This document shows, one piece after another, positions 5,354 through 24,080 of a stretch of 29,675 nt of DNA. The notes beneath the pieces are model-generated. The model had not been told where the DNA came from, did no database searches, and worked only from the letters and a program-made list of their open reading frames with translations. The translations under genes and the position numbers were made by a program. Each line of letters starts with the position of its first letter. Positions within the stretch are counted from its first letter, which is position 1. The stretch comes from a virus. Location: positions 1-29,675 of the IMG/VR virus record IMGVR_UViG_3300033150_000997. The stretch is one strand, 5' to 3'.

Positions 5354-5537
5354 ATGCCCTAAATGTGGACGGGTTTTACCTTTAGCGTGCCCCACATGTC
5401 CCCCTCAACCCTTCCAATGCCTATGCGGAAAACAGGTGATGCTGCAACCAGCACCGATGAATGAACACTTAGAGTTAATGAAGGAAATAGAGGAAAGGAG
5501 AAAAAACAGAAATGAGCAGCACAAACAGATTCATTAA
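5346..5537 (+). CDS. Zinc-ribbon microprotein ahead of the portal gene
   Basis: The GTG start at 5346 gives 63 residues beginning MPRCPKCGRVLPLACPTC and then FQCLCGKQV, so three CxC/CxxC-type pairs lie in the first 30 residues. Two would suffice for a zinc ribbon of the rubredoxin-knuckle type. The C-terminal half is a charged helix (HLELMKEIEERRKN). It overlaps the portal gene start by 26 nt, so its expression is tied to portal synthesis. The role is unknown; an assembly cofactor or regulator is possible. Confidence 0.65.
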   Translation: MPRCPKCGRVLPLACPTCPPQPFQCLCGKQVMLQPAPMNEHLELMKEIEERRKNRNEQHKQIH

Positions 5538-6777
5538 CGCTATAGAGCGCTTCAGCACAAGAATGCTTGGACCAGCGCCGATGCAGGAGAAGCTGAAGTC
5601 AGTGTCGGCTTCAACAGGCAAGGGGTTATATAGCCGTGGCTATGGGCAGCAGCCTAGAAGTATCAGAGGATACTATGACTGGTATAACTCAGACGGCGCC
5701 GTGTACGCTGGGATTAACAGTATAACAGAGATGGCGGTTGGTAACGGCTTCGAGACAGCGTTACCGGGGCTTGCCCCGAGTGACATGGAGGATGAGGATA
5801 GCCCTGAGAAGAAGCTGGTTGACGAGTTTAACGAGTATATAAACGCTGATGATTTGAACGCGAATATATGTCGTAACGTCTTGATCGCTGGGTATTGTCC
5901 GGTTGAGGTGAAGATGAATAAATACCCTAGCAGATGTGAGGTTGGTATTATTCACCCTAAGACAGTTGTCCACATTGAGATAGGTGGAGCAGAGTACCAT
6001 GGCATCAAGTATATTATCCAGAAGGTTGGGCATAATAAAGCTAAAATCATGGGGCGGAACCTAGCGTGGTTCGACCATAACGCCATCGGTAACGATAAAC
6101 GTGGGACAAGCATAATTAAACCAGTGGAAACACTACTATCAACGAAGCTTAACACGATAAACCAGATAGAGAAAATCATAGATAAACGCCTAGCACCAAT
6201 GATAATCTGGAAAAGCACACGCAACATAGAATCATTAAAAGAAGCAGTCACAGGGATAAAACCAGACGAAGACATCTTCCTCGGAAACCTAACACAGGAA
6301 GAGCTAAAAGACATCGCCCAACCAATCGACATAGGTGAAAGCGGGAAACTATGGGAATACATAGAGTACATAGATCGCCTCATATATAAGAGTCTATTCA
6401 CAGGCGACCTTGACTACTGGCGCCAAGCAACACAGGCATCAGCGACTATACTACAGGAACTAGTAGACTACAACGTAAGAGGAATAAGGAGAAGCATAAA
6501 AAGGGGAAACGAGGCAGGGTTCTACGCGAGGCTGATGAAGCTAAACGGATACAAAACCGTGCCACGTGTAAACTGGACAACGGAGAACGCGAAGTTCCGA
6601 GGAATACAGCTAGAACGATTCCTGCAGACAGGGGTAAACGCTGGATTCGTACAGCTACCGCAATACTACGAGATACTGCAGAGAAGCGGACTCGACCTAC
6701 ACCCACCTGACAAACCAATGCTCCCACCTCAACCAGTAAACCCAATCATAAAGAAAACACCAGACATAGAGAAATAG
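5512..6777 (+). CDS. Portal protein
   Basis: This 421-residue protein follows terL by about 500 nt and precedes the protease and capsid genes, which is the usual portal position. The N-terminal region has a phage-portal-like pattern (YYDWYNSDGAVYAGINSITE around residues 52-71), a middle domain with KIMGRNLAWFDHNAIG, and a long helical C-terminal half with LIYKSLFTGDL. The length fits the 400-500 residue norm. Portals form the dodecameric vertex ring through which DNA enters. ATG 5512 overlaps the previous gene. Codon use changes inside the gene near 6080, from GAG/GTT/CGT-rich to GAA/ATA/ACA-rich. The Pro-rich C-terminus ends with KKTPDIEK. Confidence 0.82.
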   Translation: MSSTNRFINAIERFSTRMLGPAPMQEKLKSVSASTGKGLYSRGYGQQPRSIRGYYDWYNSDGAVYAGINSITEMAVGNGFETALPGLAPSDMEDEDSPEKKLVDEFNEYINADDLNANICRNVLIAGYCPVEVKMNKYPSRCEVGIIHPKTVVHIEIGGAEYHGIKYIIQKVGHNKAKIMGRNLAWFDHNAIGNDKRGTSIIKPVETLLSTKLNTINQIEKIIDKRLAPMIIWKSTRNIESLKEAVTGIKPDEDIFLGNLTQEELKDIAQPIDIGESGKLWEYIEYIDRLIYKSLFTGDLDYWRQATQASATILQELVDYNVRGIRRSIKRGNEAGFYARLMKLNGYKTVPRVNWTTENAKFRGIQLERFLQTGVNAGFVQLPQYYEILQRSGLDLHPPDKPMLPPQPVNPIIKKTPDIEK

Positions 6778-6794: not shown

Positions 6795-7367
6795 TTGAAG
6801 ATAGCAGCAGTTATACTCACATTAAACGAGCAAAAACATATAAAAGACTGCATAAAACACCATGGACCACACGTAGACTACGTTATAGTAGTAGACGGCG
6901 GAAGCACAGACGGGACGCTTGAAATAGCGAACATATTAGCTGACAGAGTGGAGCAGAGGCCTAAGATAACGGACTTCGGTGAGGAACGGCAATACGCTTG
7001 GGGACTCGTGCCTGAGGACACCGAGTGGACGCTGTTCATAGACGCTGATGAACGATTCCACGACCTGCTTCTCCCGAACATAGAGGAGATAATAACAGGC
7101 GTCGTGGAACAGTACCCTGAGACGATAGCGTTCAGGTTCCCACGAGCCAATCTACCGAAGTGCAGCGACTACCCTGACTACCAGACACGTTTACTGAAGA
7201 ACAACGAGAACATAGTATGGGTGAATAAAGTAGACGAGGTGCCGACGCTGGACGGTGAACTACTGGATGGGATACCGGGGAAATGTATGACGGTGCTCGA
7301 TAAACCGATATGGCACTTCATGGAGAAGCGTCCACGCTGGTACCGAGAAGGTAGAGCAGATAACTAA
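6795..7367 (+). CDS. GT2-family glycosyltransferase (GT-A fold)
   Basis: The TTG start at 6795 gives 190 residues. The N-terminus IAAVILTLNEQKHIKDCI, the nucleotide-binding VVDGGSTDGTLEIA (about residues 32-45) and the metal-binding DADE (about 83-86) are hallmarks of GT2 enzymes that transfer a sugar from a nucleotide donor. The C-terminal acceptor part is short (W-H-F-M-E-K-R near the end), so it is smaller than the typical 230-300 residues and lacks membrane helices, implying a soluble enzyme. It lies between the portal gene and accessory structural genes, away from the main glycan cassette. It probably modifies a virion component, though the target is not visible. Confidence 0.88.
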   Translation: MKIAAVILTLNEQKHIKDCIKHHGPHVDYVIVVDGGSTDGTLEIANILADRVEQRPKITDFGEERQYAWGLVPEDTEWTLFIDADERFHDLLLPNIEEIITGVVEQYPETIAFRFPRANLPKCSDYPDYQTRLLKNNENIVWVNKVDEVPTLDGELLDGIPGKCMTVLDKPIWHFMEKRPRWYREGRADN

Positions 7368-11003: not shown

Positions 11004-11044
11004 GCGTAGCATAACTTACACCTATACGTGAAACCTAACCCACG

Positions 11045-11050
11045 TTTTTT
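11045..11050 (+). terminator. T-run terminator candidate before the capsid gene
   Basis: Six T (CACGTTTTTTCAT) lie 42 nt after the stop of the tail-tube-like gene and ahead of a TATA box. This suits an archaeal T-run terminator isolating the capsid gene's own transcription. Confidence 0.35.
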
Positions 11051-11065
11051 CATACTCCAAAAGAG

Positions 11066-11086
11066 ACCGCAAAGTATGGCTGCGGT
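11066..11086. repeat. Inverted repeat ACCGCA-N9-TGCGGT
   Basis: Perfect 6-bp arms (11066-11071 and 11081-11086) with a 9-nt spacer lie about 47 nt upstream of the capsid TATA box. It could be an operator or an RNA hairpin with the adjacent T-run. The role is not shown. Confidence 0.4.
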
Positions 11087-11132
11087 ATACAAATTATGGC
11101 ATATAGACAGACTAGAAACGGGAAACGTTGTC

Positions 11133-11138
11133 TATAAA
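11133..11138 (+). promoter_or_regulatory. Candidate TATA box of the major capsid gene
   Basis: TATAAA, about 35 nt before the ATG at 11173, lies in a 169-nt gap following a T-run. The spacing suits a short-leader archaeal transcript, although transcription starting about 25 nt downstream would begin inside the 11148-11162 hairpin. Confidence 0.45.
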
Positions 11139-11147
11139 CTCAGCCCA

Positions 11148-11162
11148 CCTCCAAAAAGGAGG
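11148..11162 (+). promoter_or_regulatory. RBS of capsid gene inside CCTCC-A5-GGAGG hairpin
   Basis: The GGAGG site (11158-11162), 10 nt from the ATG, is the 3' arm of a perfect 5-bp hairpin with CCTCC (11148-11152) and an AAAAA loop. On a longer read-through transcript the site would be masked. On a transcript from the nearby TATA box the 5' arm could be missing and the site free. Confidence 0.5.
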
Positions 11163-11172
11163 AAAATAAACT

Positions 11173-12321
11173 ATGAGCGAAACAATCGTAGAACTAGACC
11201 TAAGCGACTTCAAGAAAGAGATGCGTGACAACATGGCGGAGCATTTCCGAAGCCTAGAAGAAAAACTAGTGCCAAGGGAAACACTTGACAGCATAAACGA
11301 GGCTATAAACCAGCCTAAACCACAGCCATTCGACTACACGATAGGAGTAGACAAACTACTTCACACCGTGCACAGAAAAATCGGCATAGATGACTACAAG
11401 TACAGACTCGACGGCAAAGACGTCGAAGACATAGCCATCACGTCAATGAATGAAGCGTTAAAGGAAACAGAGTACTCGTTAACAGAGGCAATCGGATCAC
11501 TAAACCCAGACTGCTGCATCCCAGAGATATGGGCAGACAAAGTTGAAAGAGACCACGTCTACCCCGGAAGCGTGTTCCTCGGAGCATGGTTCATGAACTG
11601 GTATGACGACATACAGGGAAGACCCGGAGACAAAGTGCATATATGCAGGGTAGGACCAGCAGTATGCACAGACCTCGCATGTGAAGAACCTACAACCGCA
11701 GCGGCTACATTAGAGTGTCCATACATCACCCTTGAGCATGACACATGTGCATATTATATATGCCGTGAGGACATCGAGGACGTGCAGTATGGACTAGTAG
11801 ACGCGTTGAACGAGGGACTCGGAGCATGCCTAGCGGTATGCGTTGACAACTACTTCTTTAACGTAGCTCTCAGCTGCACTAACGGCGGAACACTGTCAAG
11901 CGCAGGCGCCATGACTGGAAGCCTCATCCTAGAGGCTATGGGCTCGATGATGGCTGGTACATACACCCCGGCTAAAATCATCATGCACCCAGTAGTCTGG
12001 ACGTCGCTAATGCAGGACACGAACTTCACCTATGCTAACCGTTTCGGCGCACGAGACGTTATCAGCGGCGGAAGACTTGAACAAGCATACGGACTAGAGA
12101 TCAGCGTAACCCCGAAGGGGACTCTGCACGTCGGTGGCGGAACCTACAGGACTCTCCTACTAGCTAAGGGAGCCTTGGCGGGAGCCATTAAACACGGCGT
12201 AACCATTGAGACAGAGTACAGCCCACGCCTACAGAAGCGCTGGGTTATAGCGGACATCCGCTACGGCGGAGTATGCCTGCACCCTGACGGCATCTACTGG
12301 ATACAAAGCGTAGAGGCTTAA
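11173..12321 (+). CDS. Major capsid protein (HK97 fold), Cys-rich
   Basis: This 382-residue protein follows the protease-scaffold gene. A charged helical N-terminus (about residues 5-45) precedes a domain with DYTIGVDKLLHTVHRKIG. The later part has the HK97-like stretch YTPAKIIMHPVVWTSLMQD, RFGARDVISGGRLEQAYG and LLLAKGALAGAIKHGVTIE, then the E-x-S strand and terminal beta-strands (SPRLQKRW...DIRYGG). The order and length are typical of capsid subunits. Unusually it has 12 Cys (CC in NPDCC, CRVGPAVC, CAYYIC, ACLAVC and others), which could make disulfides or bind metal. It appears to have its own promoter, and a T-run follows. No N-terminal protease site can be called by eye. Confidence 0.85.
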   Translation: MSETIVELDLSDFKKEMRDNMAEHFRSLEEKLVPRETLDSINEAINQPKPQPFDYTIGVDKLLHTVHRKIGIDDYKYRLDGKDVEDIAITSMNEALKETEYSLTEAIGSLNPDCCIPEIWADKVERDHVYPGSVFLGAWFMNWYDDIQGRPGDKVHICRVGPAVCTDLACEEPTTAAATLECPYITLEHDTCAYYICREDIEDVQYGLVDALNEGLGACLAVCVDNYFFNVALSCTNGGTLSSAGAMTGSLILEAMGSMMAGTYTPAKIIMHPVVWTSLMQDTNFTYANRFGARDVISGGRLEQAYGLEISVTPKGTLHVGGGTYRTLLLAKGALAGAIKHGVTIETEYSPRLQKRWVIADIRYGGVCLHPDGIYWIQSVEA

Positions 12322-12360
12322 ACGCCTAACGCGTAGTCCCCGTAGAGTATTAGCACCCCA

Positions 12361-12367
12361 TTTTTTT
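12361..12367 (+). terminator. T7 terminator downstream of the capsid gene
   Basis: CCCCATTTTTTT lies 40 nt after the capsid stop and before the next TATA box, which is the expected place for an archaeal T-rich terminator. Confidence 0.5.
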
Positions 12368-12379
12368 AACCAGTTAAAC

Positions 12380-12395
12380 CCATAGAAGCCTATGG
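12380..12395. repeat. Palindrome CCATAG-AAGC-CTATGG upstream of cassette promoter
   Basis: Perfect 6-bp arms with a 4-nt spacer end 12 nt before the TTTATATA box. The geometry fits an operator for an activator or repressor of the glycan cassette, or alternatively a terminator hairpin on the 3' side of the T7. Confidence 0.4.
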
Positions 12396-12407
12396 TGAAT
12401 AGATACG

Positions 12408-12415
12408 TTTATATA
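12408..12415 (+). promoter_or_regulatory. TATA box of the glycan cassette (TTTATATA)
   Basis: TTTATATA matches the archaeal TATA consensus. It sits in a gene-free gap of 151 nt, 58 nt before the TTG of the first cassette gene, leaving a leader of about 35 nt that contains GTGGAG. Confidence 0.6.
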
Positions 12416-12472
12416 CATCTATTCTATATATCATTATTAACATCAACACGTCTAGCGTGGAGAATATAGGAT

Positions 12473-14488
12473 TTGAGTAAAGTAAAGCGAAGCAGTGATA
12501 AAACCTTCACTGGAAGCATGCCATCATCAACATACGGTGAAGGCTATTTTCTGAGAGGCGAAGGATCAAGCTACGGGAAAACAGATAACGGAGTCGAATC
12601 AGAGGCAACCGCATACATAGAGGAAGTGTATCTTCCCCGAGACAGAAAAGTGGTTGACGTTTTTCTATCAGTAATACCCAACGTGAAAAAGGCGATTGTT
12701 CTAGGATGCGCCCGTGGATACATGGTGCAAGCCTTCCATGAAAAAGGGGTACAAGCAGTCGGAGTAGACATCAGTGAATGGGCTATCACACACGGCGCTG
12801 AGAAAGTGAAAGACAGCCTATACTGTGGAGACGTATGCGACCTAAGCATGTGGGGTGACAAAGAGTTCGACCTAGTAGTAGCACTAGACGTGCTCGAACA
12901 TATACGAGTCCCAGACCTATACACAGCTATAAGTGAAGCTGTGCGGGTTGGGAGAAACATAGTCCTCGATGTGCCGATACGCCCAGATGACAGTGAACCA
13001 GATCAGAGCCACGGCGTAGATAAGACACATGTAAGCATATACAGTAAAGAGTGGTGGATAAACGAGTTCCTGATAAGAGGCGTGGAGCCAGTAAACATAC
13101 AGGAATACCTATACCCCAAGATAAGAGAAGACAGCCCATGGGAGGATAAACACGACCACGCAGTCACAATATACTTCAAAACACCCAAACCGCCGCCAAC
13201 CGTAGAGAACACAGTAGAGTACCCAGTGAAACCAGACAGCAAAGACTTCAAAATACTCTGGTGGAGCAACGCACACTGGTCTTCGACGGGCTATGGCCTT
13301 GGAACGAAGCACGTGGTATACAAGCTTCACGAGTACTACGACATCGCGTGTCTAGCGAGCTACGGTCTTGAAGGGGCTGCGCTTAGCTTCAACGGGATGA
13401 AGGTGTTCCCTAAGAAATTCGACCCGTATGGAATAGACGCAGCGGAGATGATCTGCCGTAACTGGAAACCTGATATACTTATCACGTTATTCGATATATG
13501 GATAGGAAGCAGCGGTTTATATAAGGGGCAACGTGACTGGTTCACGAAAATACATCCATATTGGTGTCCTTACTTCCCGGTGGATCATGATCCGATACCT
13601 ATTCCTACGCTGGAGCAAGCCCGTCTAGCGTATCACTGTATATCAATGAGCATGTTCGGCAGAAACCAGTTAAGGCGACAGGGCATAGAATCAACATACA
13701 TACCGCATGGAGTAGACACTAAGACATTCAAACCCATGGATAAACAGGAGAACAAACAGTGGCTATATGAACGGGTAAGCACACCGATAACGGGGAAAGA
13801 AGGGAAACCATGGGATGACAACATATTCCTAATAGGGAAAAACGCCGCCAACAAGGACACGAAGCGGAAAAACTATGACAGAGACTTAAAAGCCATAAGC
13901 CTATTCCTGCAACAGAACCCTGACGCGAAGAAAGACACGCGAATATACTTCCACACAAACCCAGATTTCCCTAACGCCTTCCCGTTAAGAGACATGGCGC
14001 AGATGACTGGTTTAGGGGAATATATACGCGTCACCCACCCGTTCCAAATGTACTGTGGTATGAGTGAGGGAAACATGGCGAAGATGTATAATGCGTTCGA
14101 CGTTTACCTAGGGACAGCGCGGAACGAGGGATTCGGAATCCCGTTAATAGAAGCACAAGCATGCGGGGTGCCAACTATATCAACGGCGTTCACCTCAATG
14201 ACTGAGCTCGTGGGTGAAACAGGTTGGCTTGTAACCCCGATAACAACGGATACAACCATGCTTCTCAGCGAACAGGCTATACCTAACGAGTGGGAGATAG
14301 CGGAGTACCTAGAGAAAGCGTATAACAGTGACCCAGCTGAGCTTAAGAGGATAGGGGATAAGGCGCGGAGGTTTACGTTAAACTATGACTGGGAGAAAGT
14401 CGTGCAGCCACTGTGGGTGAATCTGATAGAGAGACTAAGAGAGGATATGCACCCAAAGAGCGTGGAGGAGAGGAGGATAAATCTATGA
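12473..14488 (+). CDS. SAM methyltransferase fused to GT4-family glycosyltransferase
   Basis: The TTG start at 12473 gives 671 residues. Residues about 70-215 form a class I methyltransferase: motif I VLGCARG (76-82), GVDISEW (97-103) and VALDVLEH (136-143). A Pro-rich linker follows, and residues about 249-660 are a GT-B glycosyltransferase with the GT4 signature NEGFGIPLIEAQACGVP around residue 551 and a donor-domain YFHTNPDF. The GT part begins KILWWSNAHWSSTGYGLG, as in GT4 enzymes. The fusion suggests methylation coupled to sugar transfer, perhaps capping a glycan. It opens the cassette behind its own TATA box and overlaps the next gene at ATGA. Confidence 0.85.
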   Translation: MSKVKRSSDKTFTGSMPSSTYGEGYFLRGEGSSYGKTDNGVESEATAYIEEVYLPRDRKVVDVFLSVIPNVKKAIVLGCARGYMVQAFHEKGVQAVGVDISEWAITHGAEKVKDSLYCGDVCDLSMWGDKEFDLVVALDVLEHIRVPDLYTAISEAVRVGRNIVLDVPIRPDDSEPDQSHGVDKTHVSIYSKEWWINEFLIRGVEPVNIQEYLYPKIREDSPWEDKHDHAVTIYFKTPKPPPTVENTVEYPVKPDSKDFKILWWSNAHWSSTGYGLGTKHVVYKLHEYYDIACLASYGLEGAALSFNGMKVFPKKFDPYGIDAAEMICRNWKPDILITLFDIWIGSSGLYKGQRDWFTKIHPYWCPYFPVDHDPIPIPTLEQARLAYHCISMSMFGRNQLRRQGIESTYIPHGVDTKTFKPMDKQENKQWLYERVSTPITGKEGKPWDDNIFLIGKNAANKDTKRKNYDRDLKAISLFLQQNPDAKKDTRIYFHTNPDFPNAFPLRDMAQMTGLGEYIRVTHPFQMYCGMSEGNMAKMYNAFDVYLGTARNEGFGIPLIEAQACGVPTISTAFTSMTELVGETGWLVTPITTDTTMLLSEQAIPNEWEIAEYLEKAYNSDPAELKRIGDKARRFTLNYDWEKVVQPLWVNLIERLREDMHPKSVEERRINL

Positions 14489-15300
14489 CAAAATCAAAGG
14501 TAGCGTTATGCATGCCTGTTAAGAACGGTGAACCTTGGCTGCCTAAAAACCTTGAAATAATAGAAAGCTTCGGCAAAGAGATAAACAGGGTTATCATAAG
14601 CTACGGACACAGCGTGGACGACACGTTAAACATATTGATTAAGTGGATAAAACAGTCAAAACATAGAGTAGAGCTAATACGTGAACCTAAACCAAAAAAC
14701 ACGGTGAACAGCAGCGCAGAGATAGCGTTCCTATACCACGATTTCCAGCAACTCGTAAAAACAGGTGACGACACACATGCCTTACTATGGGACAGCGACA
14801 TAGTTGATGCACCTAAGAACCTCGTTAAGAAGCTTCTTAAACACGATAAACCAATAATAGCACCATATGTATACATTAAATACCATGAGCCGGGGAAACG
14901 GTTCTATGACACAATGGTGTATAGATACAAAGGGTACAGGTATCATGCCTTCGACCCACCTATGCATGGGCATAAACTAGCGCAGATAGATAGCGTGGGA
15001 TGCGTGTTCCTAGTTAAACGAGAGCCTTTCACAGAGCACCCGTATCGTGATCCTTACCCACATCTACTGTTCTGTAACGATTGCCGTGAAAGCGGGTACG
15101 GAGTATGGGTTGATCCGAATATAGAAATCTATCACGTGGACTTGGAGAGAATCGGTGGAGGAAACAACCCGATTGAGACAAACCCGAATAGCAGATTCTA
15201 TAACCCCACATATAAACCACCCCCACTGATAACTGACTCAGGTGAAATAGTTGAGAACAACGACTTCGCCTTAGAGTTTATTCAAAAATACGTGATGTGA
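14485..15300 (+). CDS. GT2/Anp1-like GT-A glycosyltransferase
   Basis: ATG at 14485 overlaps the previous stop and follows AGGAGG (14471-14476). An upstream ATG at 14413 is in frame but lies in the previous gene. The 271-residue protein has [19 protein letters not shown] at the N-terminus and [11 protein letters not shown] (DxD motif) near residue 105. It also has [19 protein letters not shown], the [10 protein letters not shown] motif and a C-terminal [15 protein letters not shown]. These features are shared with the gene at 15943-16719, so the two are paralogs. Enzymes of this type add mannose or related sugars to nascent glycans. The substrate is unknown. Confidence 0.75.
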
Positions 15301-15301
15301 G

Positions 15302-15949
15302 ATGAACCCAGTAATCGTGTTAGGGGCTGGGGTGAAGACACAACACCTATGCGACTTATTTAACCTATGGAGTAGCATAATACAACTATACGAAGAACCC
15401 TATACCAGATCAGAGACAAAACGAGGCAAACCAGTAAAAGACACCATAATCGTAATAGATCAACCGTTAACCGTATACTCCGCCGTAGGAGACACACGTG
15501 ACAAAAGAACACTGATAAAACGCTTCACAGAAGACGCAACTAGACATAACGTCCAATACACATGGGGAACACTAACACATCAAACAACAGTGATAACAAA
15601 CCCACAACACATAGGCGTAGACTTCATAATAAGAGAACAAAGCAGCATAGGATCACAGTGCAACATAGGAAACCACGTAAGCATCGGACCACTCGCTAAC
15701 GTTAGCCACAACACAGTTATAGGCGACTACTCAACGATATGTGGGCAAGCAGCAATAAGCGGGGGGGTTACACTCGGTGAAGGCGTGTTCATCGGGCAAG
15801 GGGCATCCGTTAAACCCAAAGTTAAGATAGGGGACGGCGCTGTTGTCGGAACAGGCGCGGTTGTGACACGGGATGTCCCACCGAACATGGTTGTAGCGGG
15901 AAACCCTGCACGCAGTAACATAAAGTTCAGGAAGCTCCCGCATTGGTAG
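15302..15949 (+). CDS. PglD/NeuD-like sugar acyltransferase (left-handed beta-helix)
   Basis: This 215-residue protein has an N-terminal Rossmann-like strand ([16 protein letters not shown]) and a C-terminal hexapeptide-repeat domain (about residues 105-205) in which I/V-G-x-x-x-x repeats are obvious ([52 protein letters not shown]). SHNTVIGDY supplies the conserved His seen in PglD-type enzymes, and the ending GNPAR is the usual family end. The family acetylates 4-amino sugars on nucleotide carriers, or sialic acid for NeuD. With the aminotransferase and SDR genes downstream, an N-acetylated amino sugar product is likely. Confidence 0.85.
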
Positions 15950-16719
15950 AGCCACTGGTTCTCATAGGATTCGTCGCGCGTGACGCCGAGAATACGCTCC
16001 CACGTTTCCTAGAGCAGATAGATAATCTTGACTACCCTAAAGATAGGCTGAGATACGCGTGCGTAGAGGGTGGAAGCAAAGATAACACACGCGGAATCAT
16101 ACTTGACTGGATGAAGCCTAAGAAGAACACGTTCTTCATACAACATGACATGGATGACGCTAAGTTCCGCCACAGGGAACGCATGTTCTACAGCAGCAAC
16201 CTATGGAGACACTACGTGAAGACACATTTCAAAGGAGTAGAACCAGTAGACTATGTGTTCCAATGCGACGCAGACGTTGTGAAGATACCACAGGAAACAC
16301 TGAAAACACTCATAGACTTAGACGTAGACATAGTTGCGCCATACATATACATAGACCCAGAGAACAACTATAAAAACCCGTACAGAAACACACACACGTT
16401 CTACGACGTATGGGGATACAGACACCTATACGGACCACACCCCGGGCTTCAGTTTAACCCGAATATACATATGTATTATAAACGCCGTATGCTTAACGAT
16501 GACACGATAAAAGCGGATAAAGAGAAACACCTATTACCGATGATATGCGTTGGGGCTAACCCGGTTCTCGCGAAGCGTGAAGTATATGAAAAAGTATGGT
16601 ACACGGGGGATAAGGCTACGCCGGGTTGGTGTATGGCGGCGCGTGAACAAGGCTTCAAGGTTTGGGCGTACCCTGAGCTTGAATGCCTTCATGATTGGAG
16701 AGTGCTAATAGAAAGATGA
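15943..16719 (+). CDS. GT-A glycosyltransferase, paralog of the enzyme at 14485
   Basis: The TTG start at 15943 overlaps the preceding stop; 258 residues. The N-terminus [20 protein letters not shown] is a GT-A start. Residues about 106-113 are FQCDADVV (DxD metal site), followed by [43 protein letters not shown] and a C-terminal [16 protein letters not shown]. These elements align with the gene at 14485-15300, which supports paralogy by duplication. The fold and context indicate a nucleotide-sugar-dependent transferase. It probably acts on the same glycan at a different linkage. The stop and the ATG of the next small gene overlap. Confidence 0.75.
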
Positions 16720-16862
16720 GTAAACATATTTACAGACTTATAGCGTATAAGGATGGACGTAAAGTAACGTTAGCGGAGTACCGTGGAGACGACACAGGTT
16801 TACATGGATTCAAGATAGAGCGAGTGGAGAAAAAGAGTGAAACACGGGAAACGCCGATGTAA
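16716..16862 (+). CDS. 48-residue hypothetical protein within the glycan cassette
   Basis: ATG at 16716 overlaps the TGA of the glycosyltransferase gene. The protein [20 protein letters not shown] continues EYRGDDTGLHGFKIERVEKK and ends ETRETPM. It is short, charged, with no membrane segment and no Cys. The next gene starts inside it at GTG 16837, another tight overlap. The lack of sequence similarity to carbohydrate enzymes suggests a structural or regulatory microprotein carried with the cassette, or part of an earlier gene order. Confidence 0.55.
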   Translation: MSKHIYRLIAYKDGRKVTLAEYRGDDTGLHGFKIERVEKKSETRETPM

Positions 16863-17007
16863 ACACGACGGAGAAGAAGTGCCGGTGATGTTATCAGCTA
16901 ACGTGAACCGAAACGTGGGGCTAATATGCTTCTGCGTAAAAGGAGAAGGCAGATGCCCGAAGAACGGCGGACATAGATGCCTATTCCAGTTAACAGAAGA
17001 ACAGTGA
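16837..17007 (+). CDS. 56-residue Cys-rich putative zinc protein
   Basis: The GTG at 16837 follows GGAGA by 6 nt and overlaps the preceding gene by 26 nt. The 56-residue product has KRRCKH near the start, then LICFCVKGEGRCPKNGGHRC in the second half, so five Cys in total. That cluster can coordinate zinc. It is basic and shorter than a typical zinc-ribbon domain. It is flanked by hypothetical genes inside the glycan cassette and has no recognisable enzymatic role. Confidence 0.55.
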   Translation: MKHGKRRCKHDGEEVPVMLSANVNRNVGLICFCVKGEGRCPKNGGHRCLFQLTEEQ

Positions 17008-17029
17008 AGATAGATTGGAGAAAACGTAG

Positions 17030-17275
17030 ATGAGGAAAACACTCATAAGAATACTCGGAGGATACACCGAACCCGGAAAAATCACGGTAAAACCAACCGA
17101 GATGACGAGCAGCACAGTAAACAGAAACTTCACCAACATAGAGTTAGAGCTAAAAGCCGGAAACCTAAACGTGAAAGTATCCGCATGGGACGACGCACAG
17201 GCGATGAAAATGTTCAACGCAGTTATGGAGAAGGTTAACATTATCCCAGAAGAGGATAACCCACTGGTGGGTTAG
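17030..17275 (+). CDS. Hypothetical protein (81 aa)
   Basis: ATG at 17030, with GGAG about 9 nt upstream. The protein has MRKTLIRILGGYTEPGKITV at the N-terminus and a beta-alpha pattern with FTNIELELKAGNLNVKVSAW, then a helix AQAMKMFNAVMEKVNII. It is 81 residues, globular in composition, without membrane segment or Cys. Its stop abuts the ATG of the aminotransferase gene (TAGATG). A regulatory or carrier role for the cassette is possible. No known family is recognised. Confidence 0.6.
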   Translation: MRKTLIRILGGYTEPGKITVKPTEMTSSTVNRNFTNIELELKAGNLNVKVSAWDDAQAMKMFNAVMEKVNIIPEEDNPLVG

Positions 17276-18301
17276 ATGAATATACCGTGGGCAGCCCCAG
17301 ACTTCGGGGAACAGGAGAAGAAGGCAGCTAAACGCGTAGTAGACAGCGGGTGGATGACGATGGGTGAAGAAACCCAGCGCTTGGAGACTGAGTTAGCGGC
17401 GGTTACAGGGAAGAAGCATAACATAGTGTTCAACAGCGGAACAAACGCTATACTAGCATCCCTTCTCGCAATAGGGGCATATCATGAAGGATACACGGTG
17501 CGTATACCAAGCTACACGTTTAAGGCGACTGAAAACGCTGTGTACGCGTCAGGGCTACGCCGCGTAAAATACGGTGACGTAAACCCGTCAACTGTTTTAA
17601 TGAAACCTAAAGACAGTGGTAAAAGATATGAGATACAGATACCAGTACACTACGCTGGGTTACCTATTAACCAACAAGTCTGGGGAGAAACACGTCTCGT
17701 GGTGGAGGACGCGGCGGAGTCTTTTGGCGCAACTACTCGCTATACTGGTGATGTTAGCGGCGATAGGATTCTGTGCTATAGTTTCCATGCTGCTAAAGTA
17801 GTCACAATGATAGAGGGAGGATGCGCCTCAACAGATAACCCAGAGTACGCGTATAAACTGAGGGCGGTGCGTTGCCACGGGGAAAACCCAGATGAGAAAG
17901 GAGCATTCATCACCCGTGGGTTAAACATGAAACCTCTTGACATATGCAGCGCGGTTGGGAGAGTTCAGTTAAAGAAGCTTAAAACCTATCTAAGTAACCG
18001 TGAACGTATCGCGAAGCTATACCGCGAGGAGCTTGACGGCGTAGTAGGGTTTCAGCTTATCCCAGACTATGTGAAGCAACACGCCAACATGATGTTCCCC
18101 ATATTCGTTAAGAACCCAGTGAAGCTGGCTACGTGTTTGATGCGGAAAGGAGTAGGCTATCGTCTAGGATGGAAGCCGTTGAAACATATGCTTGGAGCGG
18201 ACTTCGTGTACCGACACGTCATATGCATCCCGATGTATAACACGTTAACACCTGATGAAGCATTATACGTGACGGAGGTAGTTAAAGAATATCTAACCTA
18301 G
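17276..18301 (+). CDS. DegT/DnrJ/EryC1/StrS-family PLP aminotransferase
   Basis: This 341-residue protein starts at ATG 17276. It begins MNIPWAAPDFGEQEKKAAKR, has the phosphate-binding NSGTNA (residues 53-58), VVEDAAESFG with Asp145 for the PLP ring, and CYSFHAAKVVTMIEGG with the Schiff-base Lys164. It ends near VICIPMYNTLTPDEA. All key family residues are present. These enzymes transfer an amino group to a keto-sugar nucleotide. Neighbouring SDR (18330) and acyltransferase (15302) genes complete a plausible route to an N-acylated amino sugar. The length is slightly short of the usual 370-390 residues. Confidence 0.9.
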   Translation: MNIPWAAPDFGEQEKKAAKRVVDSGWMTMGEETQRLETELAAVTGKKHNIVFNSGTNAILASLLAIGAYHEGYTVRIPSYTFKATENAVYASGLRRVKYGDVNPSTVLMKPKDSGKRYEIQIPVHYAGLPINQQVWGETRLVVEDAAESFGATTRYTGDVSGDRILCYSFHAAKVVTMIEGGCASTDNPEYAYKLRAVRCHGENPDEKGAFITRGLNMKPLDICSAVGRVQLKKLKTYLSNRERIAKLYREELDGVVGFQLIPDYVKQHANMMFPIFVKNPVKLATCLMRKGVGYRLGWKPLKHMLGADFVYRHVICIPMYNTLTPDEALYVTEVVKEYLT

Positions 18302-18329
18302 TTATGATGAAAGTTAGGAGAACCTAAAA

Positions 18330-19277
18330 ATGGAGAAAGTTTTATTAACGGGAAGCGACGGCTTCATAGCGAGCCACGTATCAGATGAGTTAAAACGTAG
18401 AGGATACACAGTAATACCTTTCGATAACTACAGCAACATAGAACAAGATATAAGAAACCCTAGAATGGTGGAAGCATACATGGAAAACGCTGACTACTGC
18501 CTGCACATGGCCGCATGCCCATACATCCCATTCGGTTACAGTCACCCAAACGAGTTCTTCGAGACAAACGCCAACGGAACACAGAACGTACTGAACGCCG
18601 CGAAGAAAACAGGGACACGAGTAATATACACTTCAACAAGCGAAGTCTACGGCACAGCCGAAGACCCAAACCTACCTATGAGTGAAACCCATAGAATAAA
18701 CCCACACAGCACATACGCAGTCGCCAAATACGCGGGAGACGGATTATGCAGAACATACCACCATGAACACAGAGTAGACGTAACAGTCGTACGAATGTTC
18801 AACAACTTTGGGCCAAAAGAGACTTGGCGATACGTTATCCCCGAGATAATTGAGCAGCTAAGCAGGGGCCCTGTGTTAAGCCTCGGTAACGTGTACTCTG
18901 AGCGTGATTTCACCTACGTGGTTGATGGGGCTCGTGCCTTAGTTGATGTGATGGAGTGCAGTGAGTTAGACGGCGAAGTCGTGAACTGCGGCACAGGTGA
19001 AACGTGGAGCATATTAACTATAGCTGAGATGCTTGGCGAGATAATGCGCCCCGGTGAGGATGTTAAGATTAAAATAGATGAAAAAAGGTTGAGGCCGTTT
19101 GACGTGGATAGGCTCATATGTGACGCGTCTAAGCTGCGTCAATACACTGGGTGGGAGCCTAAAGTCTGCTTCAGGGATGGTTTGGAGAGGACTGTGGAGT
19201 GGTTTAAAGGTAATGGCGGGAAATGGGATTTCAGAGAGATGAATAAGATGAATGAAAATAGAGGTGGTTACAAGTGA
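18330..19277 (+). CDS. Extended SDR sugar-nucleotide epimerase/dehydratase
   Basis: ATG at 18330 follows AGGAGA. The 315-residue protein begins with the NAD-binding VLLTGSDGFIASHVSDEL, where the last Gly of the GxxGxxG motif is Ala. The catalytic Thr/Ser lie at STSEVYG (102-108), and YAVAK (Tyr129, Lys133) is the conserved pair. The substrate-binding half has RPFDVDRLICDASKL. The family includes 4,6-dehydratases and 4-epimerases of nucleotide sugars. With the aminotransferase upstream, a keto-sugar intermediate is expected. The first and second halves differ in codon flavour. The stop overlaps the next GTG (TACAAGTGACG). Confidence 0.88.
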   Translation: MEKVLLTGSDGFIASHVSDELKRRGYTVIPFDNYSNIEQDIRNPRMVEAYMENADYCLHMAACPYIPFGYSHPNEFFETNANGTQNVLNAAKKTGTRVIYTSTSEVYGTAEDPNLPMSETHRINPHSTYAVAKYAGDGLCRTYHHEHRVDVTVVRMFNNFGPKETWRYVIPEIIEQLSRGPVLSLGNVYSERDFTYVVDGARALVDVMECSELDGEVVNCGTGETWSILTIAEMLGEIMRPGEDVKIKIDEKRLRPFDVDRLICDASKLRQYTGWEPKVCFRDGLERTVEWFKGNGGKWDFREMNKMNENRGGYK

Positions 19278-19948
19278 CGCTGTACTGTGGAACCTTTGAC
19301 GTGATAATGTTCAGCCAGATTAACTATAAGCAAGTGCATTTTGACTCAGACGCTGATTACCGTGGATGGATTCAGGGAACACTTATACCTAAAGCACAGG
19401 ATATGGTTGACAACTATGTTGGACACAACTTCTACGAGAACCGTGGCACGATAAGACTGGATGGCTCAGGGAAAGAAGTGGAACACATCAGCCCACATGG
19501 CTTAACAGTGTTCAGCAACCAAAGGGTAACAGACACAACAGGAACCCCACGCCCAAGCATGCTACTCCCCCTACCGTTAATAGCGGTAACAGGTGTAACG
19601 ATAGACGACGTAGCGCAGACAGCGACAGATTTCCAAGTCTACGAAACCTACGTAGCGTACCATAACAACACCTTCAACTCTGGGAGACAGAACGTTGACA
19701 TCATAGGAACATGGGGATACGGAACATACCCGCATGACATACAATACGTCACCGCCCAGCTATGCAGTAACGCACTCAGGGAGATGATACGAAGCGAGAT
19801 GATGCCAGACCTCATCACACCAATCCTTGAAACGGGGCAGGGAAGCGTAGGCGGGTTATCCTCACTGTTCAGAAGCCCCCGTGTGTTAACTAAGAACGAG
19901 AAAGACATACTAGACAAATATAGACTATACAGCATAGAGGTAGGATAG
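19274..19948 (+). CDS. Head-tail connector (HK97 gp6-like)
   Basis: The GTG start at 19274 overlaps the SDR stop. The 224-residue protein has an early helical region (YRGWIQGTLIPKAQDMVDNY), central beta-strands with PLPLIAVTGVTIDD, IIGTWGYGTYPHDI, and a C-terminal helix (QLCSNALREMIRSEMMPDL). This is the pattern of gp6/Ad1-type connectors, which cap the portal at the neck. It is the first gene after the glycan cassette, in the order connector, completion protein, chaperones, tape measure. The call rests on pattern and position. Confidence 0.6.
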   Translation: MTLYCGTFDVIMFSQINYKQVHFDSDADYRGWIQGTLIPKAQDMVDNYVGHNFYENRGTIRLDGSGKEVEHISPHGLTVFSNQRVTDTTGTPRPSMLLPLPLIAVTGVTIDDVAQTATDFQVYETYVAYHNNTFNSGRQNVDIIGTWGYGTYPHDIQYVTAQLCSNALREMIRSEMMPDLITPILETGQGSVGGLSSLFRSPRVLTKNEKDILDKYRLYSIEVG

Positions 19949-19950
19949 AC

Positions 19951-20412
19951 GTGGTTCTTGAGACAGTGGCTAAACAGATACGTGACATGCTTGAGAACAA
20001 CTGGAGCATACTCAACCCCGCCCTAGGTGACGTATACTTCACCACAGGCTGGTATGAGAAAGACGAGATAAAGCATCAGGTTACAGTCAGCCACATGTAC
20101 AGCCCTAATATAAGATGGTTCGGGGCAGGATACGATGCAAGCCTACATACACTCACAAACGAGATATACCAAGTGGATTGCTGGTACCGTGTAGACAGAG
20201 GCGAAGACCCCAGCCCAGACGGTGAACTCACCGTCTGGAATATGAAGGAGGAGGTTATACGGATTCTTAACACCCAGCGTAAAAACTTTGTTCCACCCGT
20301 TGGACTCGTCATACCTCTTGACAGGGGGATGCTTTTGAATGAGCGGGGTAGAAACCGTCAACCACGTATGCTACGGTGGAGTATACGTGTTCAGGCAAAC
20401 TATAAGACATAA
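19951..20412 (+). CDS. Neck / tail-completion protein
   Basis: GTG at 19951 follows the previous stop by 2 nt. The 153-residue protein begins with a helix (VLETVAKQIRDMLENNWS) and continues in mixed beta fashion (DVYFTTGWYEKDE, NEIYQVDCWYRVDRGED). It ends with MLRWSIRVQANYKT, typical of tail-terminator or connector Ad2-type proteins that join the neck to the tail tube. The assignment is by position after the gp6-like gene and by size. No decisive motif is visible. Confidence 0.5.
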   Translation: MVLETVAKQIRDMLENNWSILNPALGDVYFTTGWYEKDEIKHQVTVSHMYSPNIRWFGAGYDASLHTLTNEIYQVDCWYRVDRGEDPSPDGELTVWNMKEEVIRILNTQRKNFVPPVGLVIPLDRGMLLNERGRNRQPRMLRWSIRVQANYKT

Positions 20413-21282: not shown

Positions 21283-21705
21283 CTGAGCGTCACAGGCGTT
21301 GAACAGGTTAACAACAAGTTAACCAAGATAATAAATCAAATAATACTAGAAACAGAAAAAGCAGCCGTATTGACACAGGATCAGGTTGTAAGAGAAGCGA
21401 AGAAACGCGCCCCAATAGGAACCCCTAAAACCACTGGAATACCAGACTACATTGTAGCACACTCCTATCAGAAGAGCATAAGACGTGAACCCCCGACAAA
21501 ACAGGGGGGAAAATTCACCGCACCAGTAGTAGCAGGCAGATGGATAATAAACCCCAACACAGGGAGAGAAGTTGACTACGCGTTACCGTTAGAGCGTGGA
21601 AAAAGCGGGCAGGCGCCAGAAGGCGTCATGGAGGTATCATTAATGTCACAGATAAAATATTTCAGAAACCAGATAAGAAAAGGCGTAAGGAGAGCACTTA
21701 AATGA
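21283..21705 (+). CDS. HK97 gp10-like neck/tail protein with apparent CTG start
   Basis: The frame is open through the region, with no ATG, GTG or TTG before 21370. GGAGG at 21270-21274 lies 8 nt before an in-frame CTG at 21283 that would begin LSVTGVEQVNNKLTKII. Starting at TTG 21370 would delete this gp10-like N-terminal helix. The 140-residue product continues with EAKKRAPIGTPKTTG, where the 'A.kRAPi.T.' pattern is characteristic of HK97 gp10 proteins, then the aromatic GRWIINPNTGREVDYAL. It likely acts in tail completion or the neck. The gene overlaps the tape measure start by 4 nt. Confidence 0.65.
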   Translation: MSVTGVEQVNNKLTKIINQIILETEKAAVLTQDQVVREAKKRAPIGTPKTTGIPDYIVAHSYQKSIRREPPTKQGGKFTAPVVAGRWIINPNTGREVDYALPLERGKSGQAPEGVMEVSLMSQIKYFRNQIRKGVRRALK

Positions 21706-24080
21706 GCACAGTAACAGCTGGCGAAATAGCGGTCAACGTAATAGTACGAACCGGTGAAATGGAGAAAGGGCTCAGCAAAGCCACCAGCACCATGAACATC
21801 TTCAAACGTAGCGCAAGCATCGCAGCCGGGGTGATGGCGCGTGACTTATTCTACGCTATAAGCGACACCACCCGTGAAGCCATCACGTTAGGTGCAAGCA
21901 TGGAAACCCTTGAACGCAGCTTCAACGCACTCGCGGGGGTGGGAGACGAGTCAACCGTAAGCATAGAGGCGCTTGAGGAAGCCACCATGGGTATGATTAG
22001 CCGAGTAGATTTGCTTACACAGGCAAACAGAGCACTAGCACTCGGCTTACCGACGGAGGACTTGGATGAATTATTCGTCGGCGCTATTAAACTAGGGAAA
22101 GCCATGGGGTTAGACGCCACGACAGCGGTTGAGAAACTGACACTAGGGTTAGGGCGACAGAGTTACAGACTACTAGATGACCTAGGGATAATCATCCGCG
22201 CAGGGGACGCCAACGAGATATACGCGAAACGCATAGGTAAAACCGTTGACGAGTTAACAGCGTCAGAGCGTCAAACAGCGTTCCACACAGTCGCCATAGA
22301 GCGTCTTAACGAGAAAGTTGCGACACTAGGAGACAACATCGGCGACACGGATAAATCACTCTCACAATGGGACGCAACGATAAGAAACGTCACCGTAAGC
22401 ATAGGGGAACTCATAACGCCACTAGGGACACTAGCGCCAATACTTAGCACACTTTCACCTGTAATCACAGGCGTAACAATGGCGGCGTTCAGCGACCTAG
22501 GTGCAGCAATCGGGGTAACACGGTTCGCTGTGAAGGGTCTTATATTCGACTTAATACATCTAGGAGACGTATTCGGCGTATCCGCGTACGTCATGGGCGG
22601 CGTAGCTGGGCTGCTGATAGCGACACTACCATACGCGATACGTGGATACATTAAACTAATAAAAGACCTCACAGCCAACAAACGGTTCGACACCCAGACC
22701 ACAGAGGAACTAATAGAGGCAGAGCAAGCGTTCGCCGACGCCATGATAGAATCCACGCAGGCGGCGTCAGGCTATACACGCGCCTTAGAGCAGTATAACT
22801 CAGCGACGGAGAAGACACCTGATTTACTTGACGCGTGGATGGACGCTGAGAATAAGCTAGCTAAGGCTCAGGAGAAGGAAGCCGATGCGTTAGAGCGGCT
22901 GAATGAGGCTAAGGAGAATCAACGTAAGGTAGACGCTGAGTATACGCGGGTAGCTGGGAACCTCGTGAACCTGATTAAATACGTCACAGGCGAAGCACGT
23001 AGCTACGATGAGGTGTTAAAGGATACAACCTACCACGTGGAGGGAACAGCGGAGGCGTTAACGGAGCTAGAGAAGAACCTATCCATGACGCAGACAGCGT
23101 ACAGCCGCGCTACGGCGAGGGTGAATAAGCTAACACAGGCGATGGAGAAGAACAACCGCACCCTAAGCAAGCAGAGCATAGAACAGATGAAGATACGTGA
23201 CGCCATACAGGACAGAGAAGACGCTGCACAGGCGCAGATAGCTGGCGTTGACAACGAGATAAGCAAACTAGAGAAACTAGCGCAGACACAGGGATTCCTC
23301 ACCTTCACCCAGAGGAAACAACTTGAAGCATACAGGGAGCAACGTAGAGAACTTGAAGACGCTGGGCAAGCCACACAGGAGGAAGATGCGCGGCTAAGAG
23401 AACTCGCTGACAAGGAAAGGGAGCTAGAGATAAGAAACGCTGAGCTTGCACTCAAACTAGAGAAAGCAACCGATAAACAGGATGAGAAAAACAGGAAAAT
23501 GAGTGAAGCACAGGCGCTTGTCGATCAGTTAACCAGCCTTAACGAGAACCTGAACAACATCTACGTCTCCCAGCGGGACGCGGAGGATGATGTCAACGAC
23601 GCCCAAGAGAACTATAATGAAGCAAAACGTGAAGCGAATACCTTAACCACTGAGGCTGAGGTAGCGGAGACAAAGTACAGGAACGCAGTGGAAGCCATAG
23701 AGGACGCGTATATACGTGCAGCTGAGAAACTTGGGTTATATAACGATAAAATAAAGGAAAGAATAACGTTACAGAAGAAGCTTGACGAGTTAAAGAAGAC
23801 TGAGAAAGAGAAAACGGAGACACGTGAAGAAGCGTGGACACCTCCACAGTGGACACCGCCACAATGGGTTGAGCCTTTATCAGAAGACCCTTGGATGAAT
23901 CAAGCTAAACCAGATACAAGAGGATGGAAAAACACTACACCTATTCAGCCAACCAATAGCGCTATGGAGAGAGGGTTCACGAATAACGTTAACGTCACCA
24001 TAGAGAACATATACAGTGATAACGCGGATTTCCTAGCGGAGAACCTTAAACTAGAGCTTGAAAGAAGAGGGCTAAAGTAG
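21702..24080 (+). CDS. Tail tape measure protein
   Basis: This 792-residue protein is the longest structural component before the tail tip, placed after the tail chaperone, which is diagnostic. The N-terminus begins VTAGEIAVNVIVRTGEMEKG, as in many tape measures. A hydrophobic region (about residues 240-320, with VMGGVAGLLIATLPYAIRGY) could insert in the host membrane. Residues about 340-730 are predominantly coiled coil rich in Ala, Glu, Lys and Gln. Near the end is a short repeat (TPPQWTPPQW). By the usual 0.15 nm per residue the tail would be about 120 nm. The start overlaps the preceding gene (ATGA). Confidence 0.88.
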   Translation: MSTVTAGEIAVNVIVRTGEMEKGLSKATSTMNIFKRSASIAAGVMARDLFYAISDTTREAITLGASMETLERSFNALAGVGDESTVSIEALEEATMGMISRVDLLTQANRALALGLPTEDLDELFVGAIKLGKAMGLDATTAVEKLTLGLGRQSYRLLDDLGIIIRAGDANEIYAKRIGKTVDELTASERQTAFHTVAIERLNEKVATLGDNIGDTDKSLSQWDATIRNVTVSIGELITPLGTLAPILSTLSPVITGVTMAAFSDLGAAIGVTRFAVKGLIFDLIHLGDVFGVSAYVMGGVAGLLIATLPYAIRGYIKLIKDLTANKRFDTQTTEELIEAEQAFADAMIESTQAASGYTRALEQYNSATEKTPDLLDAWMDAENKLAKAQEKEADALERLNEAKENQRKVDAEYTRVAGNLVNLIKYVTGEARSYDEVLKDTTYHVEGTAEALTELEKNLSMTQTAYSRATARVNKLTQAMEKNNRTLSKQSIEQMKIRDAIQDREDAAQAQIAGVDNEISKLEKLAQTQGFLTFTQRKQLEAYREQRRELEDAGQATQEEDARLRELADKERELEIRNAELALKLEKATDKQDEKNRKMSEAQALVDQLTSLNENLNNIYVSQRDAEDDVNDAQENYNEAKREANTLTTEAEVAETKYRNAVEAIEDAYIRAAEKLGLYNDKIKERITLQKKLDELKKTEKEKTETREEAWTPPQWTPPQWVEPLSEDPWMNQAKPDTRGWKNTTPIQPTNSAMERGFTNNVNVTIENIYSDNADFLAENLKLELERRGLK

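Follow-up and report, generated by a model that had tools for sequence, protein, structure and literature searches.

What are genes for making and transferring sugars doing among the genes that build a tailed virus particle? The question is raised by the IMG/VR virus record IMGVR_UViG_3300033150_000997, a linear contig of 29,675 bases (hereafter the window, meaning the whole stretch analysed), in which a cassette of enzyme genes at 12473-19277 separates the major capsid protein gene (11173-12321, + strand), used as the anchor of the cassette, from a head-tail adaptor gene. A preliminary description made from the letters of this DNA had proposed that the virus makes its own sugar and either decorates its virion or remodels host surface glycans, with the position of the genes pointing to the virion. 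That reading proved the best supported of those weighed, with a core of glycosyltransferases (GTs) next to the capsid gene and two membrane-protein families not found in the nine partial contigs searched, and we hold at a probability of about 60% that the locus is a virion-glycosylation island, from which a virus-made sugar would be put on a virion protein in the cytoplasm.

From the capsid gene to the adaptor gene all genes run in one direction. The first is a fusion (MT-GT4; 12473-14488, +) of a class I SAM methyltransferase (residues ~63-168) with a GT4-family glycosyltransferase (residues ~260-655), for which Methyltransf_11 (47.2 bits) and Glyco_trans_1_4 (PF13692, 48.3 bits) scored above their Pfam cut-offs, with PHROG and NCBIfam concurring; PF00534 (47.6 bits) likewise placed it in GT4, and E552 and E560, invariant in six aligned rows, form the E-x7-E pattern that we take to be the GT4 motif. 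Next come GTA_1 (14485-15300, +), an Anp1/GT62-like GT-A glycosyltransferase with a DxD motif at residues 103-105; a VioB/PglD/NeuD-like hexapeptide-repeat N-acyltransferase (15302-15949, +; Hexapep PF00132, 56.2 bits against a cut-off of 27); and GTA_2 (15943-16719, +), a GT-A paralogue of GTA_1 at 27% identity, of which a distinct orthologue was found only in the related contig L003. Three small open reading frames (ORFs) follow, one of 48 residues (16716-16862, +; 56% identical in L003), one of 56 residues with a GTG start (16837-17007, +), which is rich in cysteine and possibly a metal-binding protein, and one of 81 residues (17030-17275, +; 75% identical in L003), for which there was no PHROG family and a single Pfam match far below cut-off. 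The cassette ends with a DegT/DnrJ/EryC1/StrS sugar aminotransferase (17276-18301, +; PF01041, 184.9 bits against 19.8) and an extended nucleotide-sugar short-chain dehydrogenase/reductase (SDR; 18330-19277, +; GDP_Man_Dehyd PF16363 at 180.2 and PF01370 at 167.5 bits, both above cut-off). Genes mostly abut or overlap, the exceptions being 16719-17030, which holds two of the small ORFs, and a spacer of 28 bases ahead of the SDR gene; the stop of the SDR gene overlaps the start of the adaptor gene (19274-19948, +; phrog_442, 2.5e-14), the 3' border of the locus, so the cassette and the neck genes are probably expressed together. ORFs and family profiles thus bear out the gene set, order, shared direction, and mostly overlapping arrangement that had been read between the capsid and neck genes.

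Relatives were collected by capsid scans of IMG/VR, together with an MT-GT4 scan and a GTA_1 scan, the last represented by the best 80 of 133 rows. The capsid-selected set comprised seven other viruses (L003, L004, L005, L007, L008, L020, and L021; best-segment capsid identity 59-80%). Two records of the window's own virus (L002, capsid 100% identical, and L009) were set apart from the counts, and duplicates (L006, equal to L005; L097, equal to L098; L120, equal to L119), repeat rows of the same contigs (L091-L095, L099, L100, L109-L111, L113-L117, L122, and L187-L190), and weak GTA_1 rows (L126-L186) were excluded; L124 and L125 gave partial matches. The order capsid, MT-GT4, GTA_1 recurred in all seven capsid-selected viruses, with a 77-residue ORF separating the two GT genes in L008. 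L096 and L098, which were picked through the MT-GT4 scan and hence selected for that gene, also carry the core after the capsid gene, and with these two included MT-GT4 orthologues of 51-75% identity follow the capsid gene in nine relatives; L112 begins inside MT-GT4, which places its capsid neighbour outside the contig. Among 69 control loci with remote capsids (~22-25% identity), no cassette gene was matched at E 1e-4, and 62 cassette and cargo proteins found no match in the 43 of these loci whose sequence runs on for 1.5 kb or more past the capsid match (for 3 kb or more in 21 of them). The contrast of 7/7 capsid-selected viruses with 0/43 remote-capsid loci ties the viral GTs genetically to the virion genes. 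MT-GT4 matched 12 of 50,697 phage records, none over 80% of its length, and the portal-position and adaptor proteins matched none of them.

In three deeper branches selected through GTA_1 (L118, L119/L120, and L121; capsid identity 40-59% where comparable), GT4 likewise follows the capsid gene but lacks the methyltransferase domain, which suggests that the fusion arose later in the history of the group. GT4- and GTA-like genes are also present in L123, with no capsid or adaptor match in its stretch. The GT4 gene of L119 (3415-5733; also in L120) contains an in-frame insert of ~350 residues that begins CFDVETEVLTEDG, bears a TPDH motif, and appears intein-like by eye, with no Pfam intein match at E 0.001.

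The interval closed at the adaptor gene in all nine contigs that could be followed that far (L003, L004, L005 with L015, L008, L020, L021, L096, L098, and L121); tracing of L007, L118, L119, and L112 stopped short of the adaptor, and the duplicate contig L097 ends before it, with no match there. Measured by hand, the GTA_1 stop and the adaptor start lie ~4.0 kb apart in the window; the corresponding figures are 4.8 kb for L003, 3.7 for L004, 10.9 for L005, 3.9 for L008, 3.3 for L020, 7.1 for L021, 15.2 for L096, 5.7 for L098, and 4.7 for L121. Several kilobases of the L096 interval belong to unrelated genes, including one that by eye resembles a fibre gene. What fills this interval differs among the viruses. 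Close relatives of the window's SDR occur in L003 (73%), L004 (68%), and L020 (64%), and an IMG/VR pattern scan built on these four SDRs returned no further one above 30%; the other viruses have different SDRs (23-32%) and different DegT genes (26-41%) in the slot. Further cargo, drawn from a Pfam summary that lists 25 of 48 families, includes FkbM and other methyltransferases, GT2 and GT4 genes, a pyruvyl transferase and a MurB-like protein in L005, LicD in L021, a B12-radical SAM protein in L021 and L096, a formyltransferase in L096, a cytidylyltransferase-like protein in L003, and a UDP-glucose dehydrogenase-like protein in L121. The two-GT core thus appears fixed and the sugar cargo interchangeable, an arrangement that resembles a capsule locus set inside a virion-assembly module. 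The preliminary description had asked whether the cassette is a mobile insert, and the comparison divides the answer: the core seems to be resident, and the cargo seems to have been exchanged between viruses. Just upstream of the capsid gene of L020 (8163-9802) lie a sugar C-methyltransferase gene and a cupin-like ORF, and sugar genes may have entered at this second site as well.

The enzyme genes are maintained. All six are open in L003, at 51-75% protein identity to the window, with DegT (51%) and GTA_2 (59%) the least conserved, and no internal stop was present in any of the 12 cassette and structural genes compared. By the Nei-Gojobori method (NG86), nonsynonymous divergence (dN) was 0.14-0.45 and synonymous divergence (dS) 1.4-3.2 in the 10 of 12 genes with defined dS; since dS is saturated, purifying selection can be claimed in general terms only. 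Relatives that lacked the cassette and decayed genes would have spoken against the preliminary description, and the relatives carry the locus; comparison with L003, L004, and L020 ruled out decay in the genes concerned, though not for L002, in which MT-GT4 is broken. This near-identical contig lacks short stretches relative to window positions 13725-14232 and 21508-21600 and has further short deletions in other genes, which may be assembly errors or real loss.

Two features of the flanks were set aside. The word TTTATATA, which the preliminary description had read as a TATA box, is present at 12408 upstream of MT-GT4; it occurs four times in the window against 1.45 expected, a count reached by 7 of 100 shuffles, and by eye the exact word was absent from the same gap of nine relatives (looser TATA-like words occur in L005 and L020). 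It was therefore discarded as a conserved promoter. An insert bounded by repeats found no support, with only short imperfect repeats in 11900-20200, and the GC content of the locus (46-49%, against 45-51% elsewhere in the window) also weighs against an insert. By eye, a C-run followed by a T-run (12356-12367, +) after the capsid gene is terminator-like; it was not called by a bacterial terminator scan, and a C-rich stretch with at least five T follows the capsid gene in seven of ten viruses, being unclear in L005, L008, and L020.

Which sugar would such a cassette make? The SDR has the motifs TSTSEVYG and YAVAK, with the active-site Glu and YxxxK expected of a 4,6-dehydratase, a motif also present in the aligned UDP-glucuronate decarboxylase and therefore unable to separate the two activities. 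Its best profile was the LegB 4,6-dehydratase TIGR04180 (233.2 bits, cut-off 475), RmlB TIGR01181 gave 143.6 bits (cut-off 365.1), and its top solved relatives were UDP-glucuronate decarboxylase 4m55 (9.2e-33), narrowly before TDP-glucose 4,6-dehydratase 1r66 (1.9e-32). In the aminotransferase, the pyridoxal-phosphate lysine Lys174 lies in SFHAAK and is kept in 6/6 sequences, as expected of the DegT family; the best solved relative was ArnB 1mdo (2.4e-30), with a perosamine synthase also among the matches, and scores were below the NCBIfam equivalogs PseC (146.9 bits, cut-off 423.5), ArnB/PRK11658 (130, cut-off 631), and LegC (112, cut-off 420). The acyltransferase reached 133.6 bits (6e-39) against NeuD_NnaD TIGR03570 (cut-off 160.8), which would place it near rather than inside the curated NeuD/PglD/VioB subfamily; its best solved relative was VioB 7txp (3.7e-21), and beside the hexapeptide repeats it keeps in 4/4 sequences the VioB-aligned His, presumably catalytic. 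Comparison with subfamily profiles thus upheld the families that had been named, with the SDR, DegT, and acyltransferase each short of the cut-off of its best NCBIfam model. The proposal that SDR, DegT, and PglD-type enzymes together yield an N-acylated amino sugar held up, in that alignments support families compatible with a single amino-sugar pathway and catalytic residues kept in orthologues. The likeliest product is a nucleoside-diphosphate (NDP)-4-acylamido-4,6-dideoxyhexose, and a 4-acylamido-4-deoxypentose is a possible alternative.

The GTs were examined by profile and, for GTA_1, by structure prediction. PF03452 (Anp1) scored 40.1 bits for GTA_1 and 36.4 for GTA_2 against a cut-off of 28.8, over a matched stretch of only ~45 residues, and the DxD is invariant, with D103 and D105 of GTA_1 kept in 12 rows. 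The AlphaFold2 (AF2) model of GTA_1 (predicted local distance difference test, pLDDT, 86.5) is predicted to have a GT-A fold, as the preliminary description had led us to expect, and its best structural match was Mnn9 (Z 22.1, root-mean-square deviation 3.0, 215 aligned residues, TMq 0.66), followed by LH3 (Z 19.8) and COLGALT1 (Z 19.6; TMq 0.55-0.62 for these next matches), both collagen-lysine glycosylating enzymes, with sugar- and teichoic-acid-modifying enzymes within a few Z units behind COLGALT1. The modelled fold alone would not prove a protein acceptor.

We propose the following mechanism. The SDR, most likely as a 4,6-dehydratase, would convert a host NDP-hexose (dTDP- or UDP-glucose, or UDP-GlcNAc) to a 4-keto-6-deoxy sugar; the DegT enzyme would add an amino group at C4; and the VioB/PglD-like enzyme would acylate it, giving an NDP-4-acylamido-4,6-dideoxyhexose of the Qui4NAc (viosamine) or Fuc4NAc type, or a 4-acylamido-4-deoxypentose should the SDR act as a decarboxylase. 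The methyltransferase domain may O-methylate the sugar. GT4 and GTA_1 would then initiate a short glycan on a virion protein, either the capsid or a neck or tail protein, and lengthen it in the cytoplasm, bypassing lipid carriers and membrane steps. Virus-specific sugars would be added by GTA_2 and other GTs, and exchange of the sugar-making and extra GT genes between viruses would give each lineage a different coat. Gene position suggests a virion protein as the acceptor; the substrates, the order of transfer, and the purpose, be it adsorption choice, shielding, or particle stability, are likewise our inference. For a cytoplasmic route, nine partial contigs (the window, L003, L004, L005, L008, L020, L021, L096, and L098) were searched for membrane-step families; neither the flippase PF01943 (0/9; control positive in 13/14 genomes) nor STT3/AglB PF02516 (0/9; control positive in 4/14) was found, results that, like those for base-modifying enzymes below, are suggestive only because the contigs are partial. 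No 19-residue segment of the window's cassette proteins exceeds a mean hydropathy of 1.53, and 2 of 55 cargo proteins of the relatives reach 1.6.

Several observations weigh against this reading. A virion acceptor is suggested indirectly, by gene position, and a route through host lipid-carrier machinery is possible. Two short deletions break the MT-GT4 frame in L002. The nearest solved structures of the SDR are UDP-glucuronate decarboxylases and that of the aminotransferase is ArnB, a pairing by which a 4-amino-pentose becomes possible, and all three enzymes being below the cut-offs of their best NCBIfam models makes any assignment of the exact sugar tentative. Three of 13 aligned SDRs of the group are without the active-site Glu, so not all cargo makes one kind of sugar, as would be expected if the sugar varied from one virus to another. 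The window showed no nucleotidyltransferase gene. The TMq of 0.55-0.62 to LH3 and COLGALT1 denotes a shared fold rather than a shared function, and Mnn9 extends mannan, with other sugar-acceptor enzymes scoring close behind.

The first alternative is that the virus extends or replaces S-layer or dolichol-linked glycans of its host, blocking superinfection or altering a receptor as in serotype conversion by temperate phages. We consider this unlikely. Soluble GTs are able to act on lipid-linked glycans, and the L096 and L008 contigs have tyrosine-integrase genes, by which some viruses of the group may be temperate; the place of the locus is fixed within the head-to-neck gene run of the relatives, however, and serotype-conversion genes usually lie beside an integrase. 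The flippase and STT3 negatives, obtained with working controls, also count against it, as does the absence of any strongly hydrophobic stretch from the cassette proteins of the window. For a gtrABC-like conversion, marked by a membrane flippase and a membrane-bound GT, the flippase negative in partial contigs and the hydropathy result are at most suggestive, the GtrA family itself not having been searched. Remodelling of this kind is discussed in PMC9723712 for methanogen and methanotroph viruses with GT and O-antigen-type sugar genes.

It is improbable, and more so than host remodelling, that the genes are metabolic cargo feeding host glycan synthesis during infection with no virus-specific acceptor: sugar genes are common in phages, and a relative of the SDR occurs in 334 of the 50,697 phage records, but a two-GT core that stays put over 40-80% capsid identity would not be expected of loose cargo, and GTA_1 had no match at E 1e-5 in those same records. 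That the GTs glycosylate modified bases of the viral genome is the least credible alternative, for although DNA-glycosylating viral GTs exist (Pyle 2024, as cited in another paper), the thymidylate-synthase/hydroxymethylase family PF00303 was found in 0/9 partial contigs (control 9/14; a Tet/JBP search, also 0/9, was uninformative because its control was positive nowhere), and neither a variable amino-sugar pathway nor a capsid-side position fits.

Glycosylation of the virion thus remains the reading that we prefer, and an extension of it concerns how the locus evolves. An old fixed GT pair may keep the link to the virion as the sugar genes are exchanged wholesale, the surface sugar varying like a serotype; we give this polymorphic coat locus somewhat less than an even chance. 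If true, the sugar would set which hosts or defences the particle meets.

The remainder of the window fits a tailed virus, its assembly genes, identified from ORFs and PHROG, all lying on the + strand: small terminase (3243-3740), large terminase (3706-5025), a gene named portal-position from its place alone (5512-6777; its protein has no PHROG match), and tape measure (21702-24080). The capsid gene was called through phrog_267, major head protein, at a weak 3.1e-6, and through weak tblastn matches (E 1e-3 to 1e-2) to genes annotated as capsid in Microbacterium and Mastigocladus phages and in one Nitrososphaera provirus; its AF2 model had a confidence (pLDDT 36.8) too low to show an HK97 fold. 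The capsid protein is rich in cysteine, and ten of its cysteines, possibly forming disulphides or metal sites, are invariant across six family members; none stays invariant when the alignment is extended by four other members together with the remote L022 and L023. A glycosylation gene apart from the main locus, absent from the preliminary description, encodes a GT2-family glycosyltransferase after the portal-position gene (6795-7367, +; Pfam 33.4 bits, phrog_13126 2.5e-17). L003 has a counterpart in the same place (5418-6017, 75%), and L020 has one (3970-4584, 54%) ahead of its g8286 homologue, the portal gene being outside the L020 stretch; two larger GT-like genes, recognized by eye, lie just before the L020 gene.

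On balance the evidence points to an archaeal host: the L008 contig has a PCNA gene, the L098 contig an MCM helicase gene, one weak capsid match is to a Nitrososphaera provirus, and the nearest match of the window's terminase is that of Halorubrum phage Hardycor1 (32%), by terminase the closest isolated archaeal virus, in which no GT is annotated between the capsid and neck genes. We know of no isolate of this virus group. Of the cargo, the MurB-like FAD protein of L005 (20223-21041; FAD_binding_4 and MurB_C above cut-off) belongs to a virus with relatives that point to archaeal hosts. A scan of the genome collection with a pattern from the capsid alignment gave 29 pattern stretches and no relatives, and one with the MT-GT4 alignment gave a single relative, a GT4-only match in a Chlorogloea metagenome-assembled genome; both scans being pattern-based, distant proviruses could escape them. 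Bathyarchaeia were dropped as a candidate host, since the passages on them in PMC10848311 gave nothing linking these contigs to them.

The leader of the capsid gene (11004-11172) holds a candidate for a new structured RNA. A hairpin at 11066-11103, present at the same place in nine relatives, has a loop that can pair with the downstream strand as an H-type pseudoknot, and by eye a further hairpin follows. In hand-cut pieces from ten viruses compared with 5000 shuffles, stem 1 was paired in 60/60 cells, showed 8 additional types of pair, and had 5 pairs in which both sides had changed (values reached by 0, 12, and 185 shuffles, respectively); the loop pairing was present in 54/60 cells (0 shuffles; L005 pairs only 3/6), its pair types and double changes being unexceptional (646 and 1174 shuffles). 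A pattern scan of 21 loci on both strands found the RNA solely before capsid genes and missed that of L005, and L021 seems by eye to have more than one copy. At the gathering score the leader RNA matched no Rfam family, nor did the window as a whole.

Several known systems resemble this one. In the bacterial VioA-VioB, PglF-E-D, Per, and ArnA-ArnB pathways, an SDR, a DegT enzyme, and a left-handed beta-helix N-acyltransferase likewise work as one set; unlike the enzymes of these viosamine, diNAcBac, perosamine, and Ara4N pathways, the window's three are below the cut-offs of their best NCBIfam models. Bacterial capsule and O-antigen loci share the fixed flanks with sugar-synthesis and GT genes exchanged within, whereas here the locus lies inside a virion-assembly run, and PF01943 was not found in the nine partial contigs, polymerase families not having been searched. 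To our knowledge, the glycosylated mycobacteriophages carry GTs but have no exchangeable genes for amino-sugar synthesis next to the capsid gene; like the present group they are tailed, and glycans sit on their capsid and tail tube subunits (Freeman 2023, as cited in PMC12619734). Among archaeal viruses, PMC10848311 reports that the capsid proteins of SSV1 are glycosylated and that a virus-encoded GT has been proposed for the capsid of the spindle-shaped Huangdivirus, so that capsid proteins carry or may carry glycans there too, in contrast with another virion type, one GT, N-X-S/T sequons, and no sugar-making locus mentioned in the passage on them. The methanogen and methanotroph viruses have 4-epimerase, 4,6-dehydratase, and GT2/GT4 genes; there, host adaptation and serotype conversion are discussed, and the passage of PMC9723712 on them describes no fixed capsid-side locus. 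In PMC8651126, which surveys the tailed viruses of archaea, the words "glycosyl," "sugar," and "polysaccharide" appear nowhere in the main text. Systems of this kind are thus known, and as far as our searches of the open-access literature reach, a fixed capsid-side core with exchanged sugar cargo has not been described.

The nearest functional parallel appears to be Mimivirus, whose fibril cluster makes UDP-2OMe-Vio4NAc (PMC10117803). Alike are the 4,6-dehydratase R141, the PLP aminotransferase L136, the N-acetyltransferase in the N-terminal part of L142, several GTs, the candidate methyltransferase R132 (in silico), the pyruvyltransferase L143, to be compared with the pyruvyl transferase in L005, and the clade-specific content of the cluster. 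Unlike the present group, Mimivirus is a eukaryotic giant virus with an unrelated virion, its cluster is flanked by a transcription factor gene on one side and an orfan gene on the other rather than by capsid and neck genes, and the fusion there is of an acetyltransferase with a GT rather than of a methyltransferase with GT4 (PMC10117803). Virion glycosylation with virus-made rare sugars is known from giant viruses of amoebae, and capsid and tail protein glycans are known for some actinobacterial phages; if our reading is true, surface-sugar polymorphism evolves on the particles of prokaryotic viruses too, and the locus offers a soluble enzyme set together with a natural series of variants that share the same core and carry different cargo.

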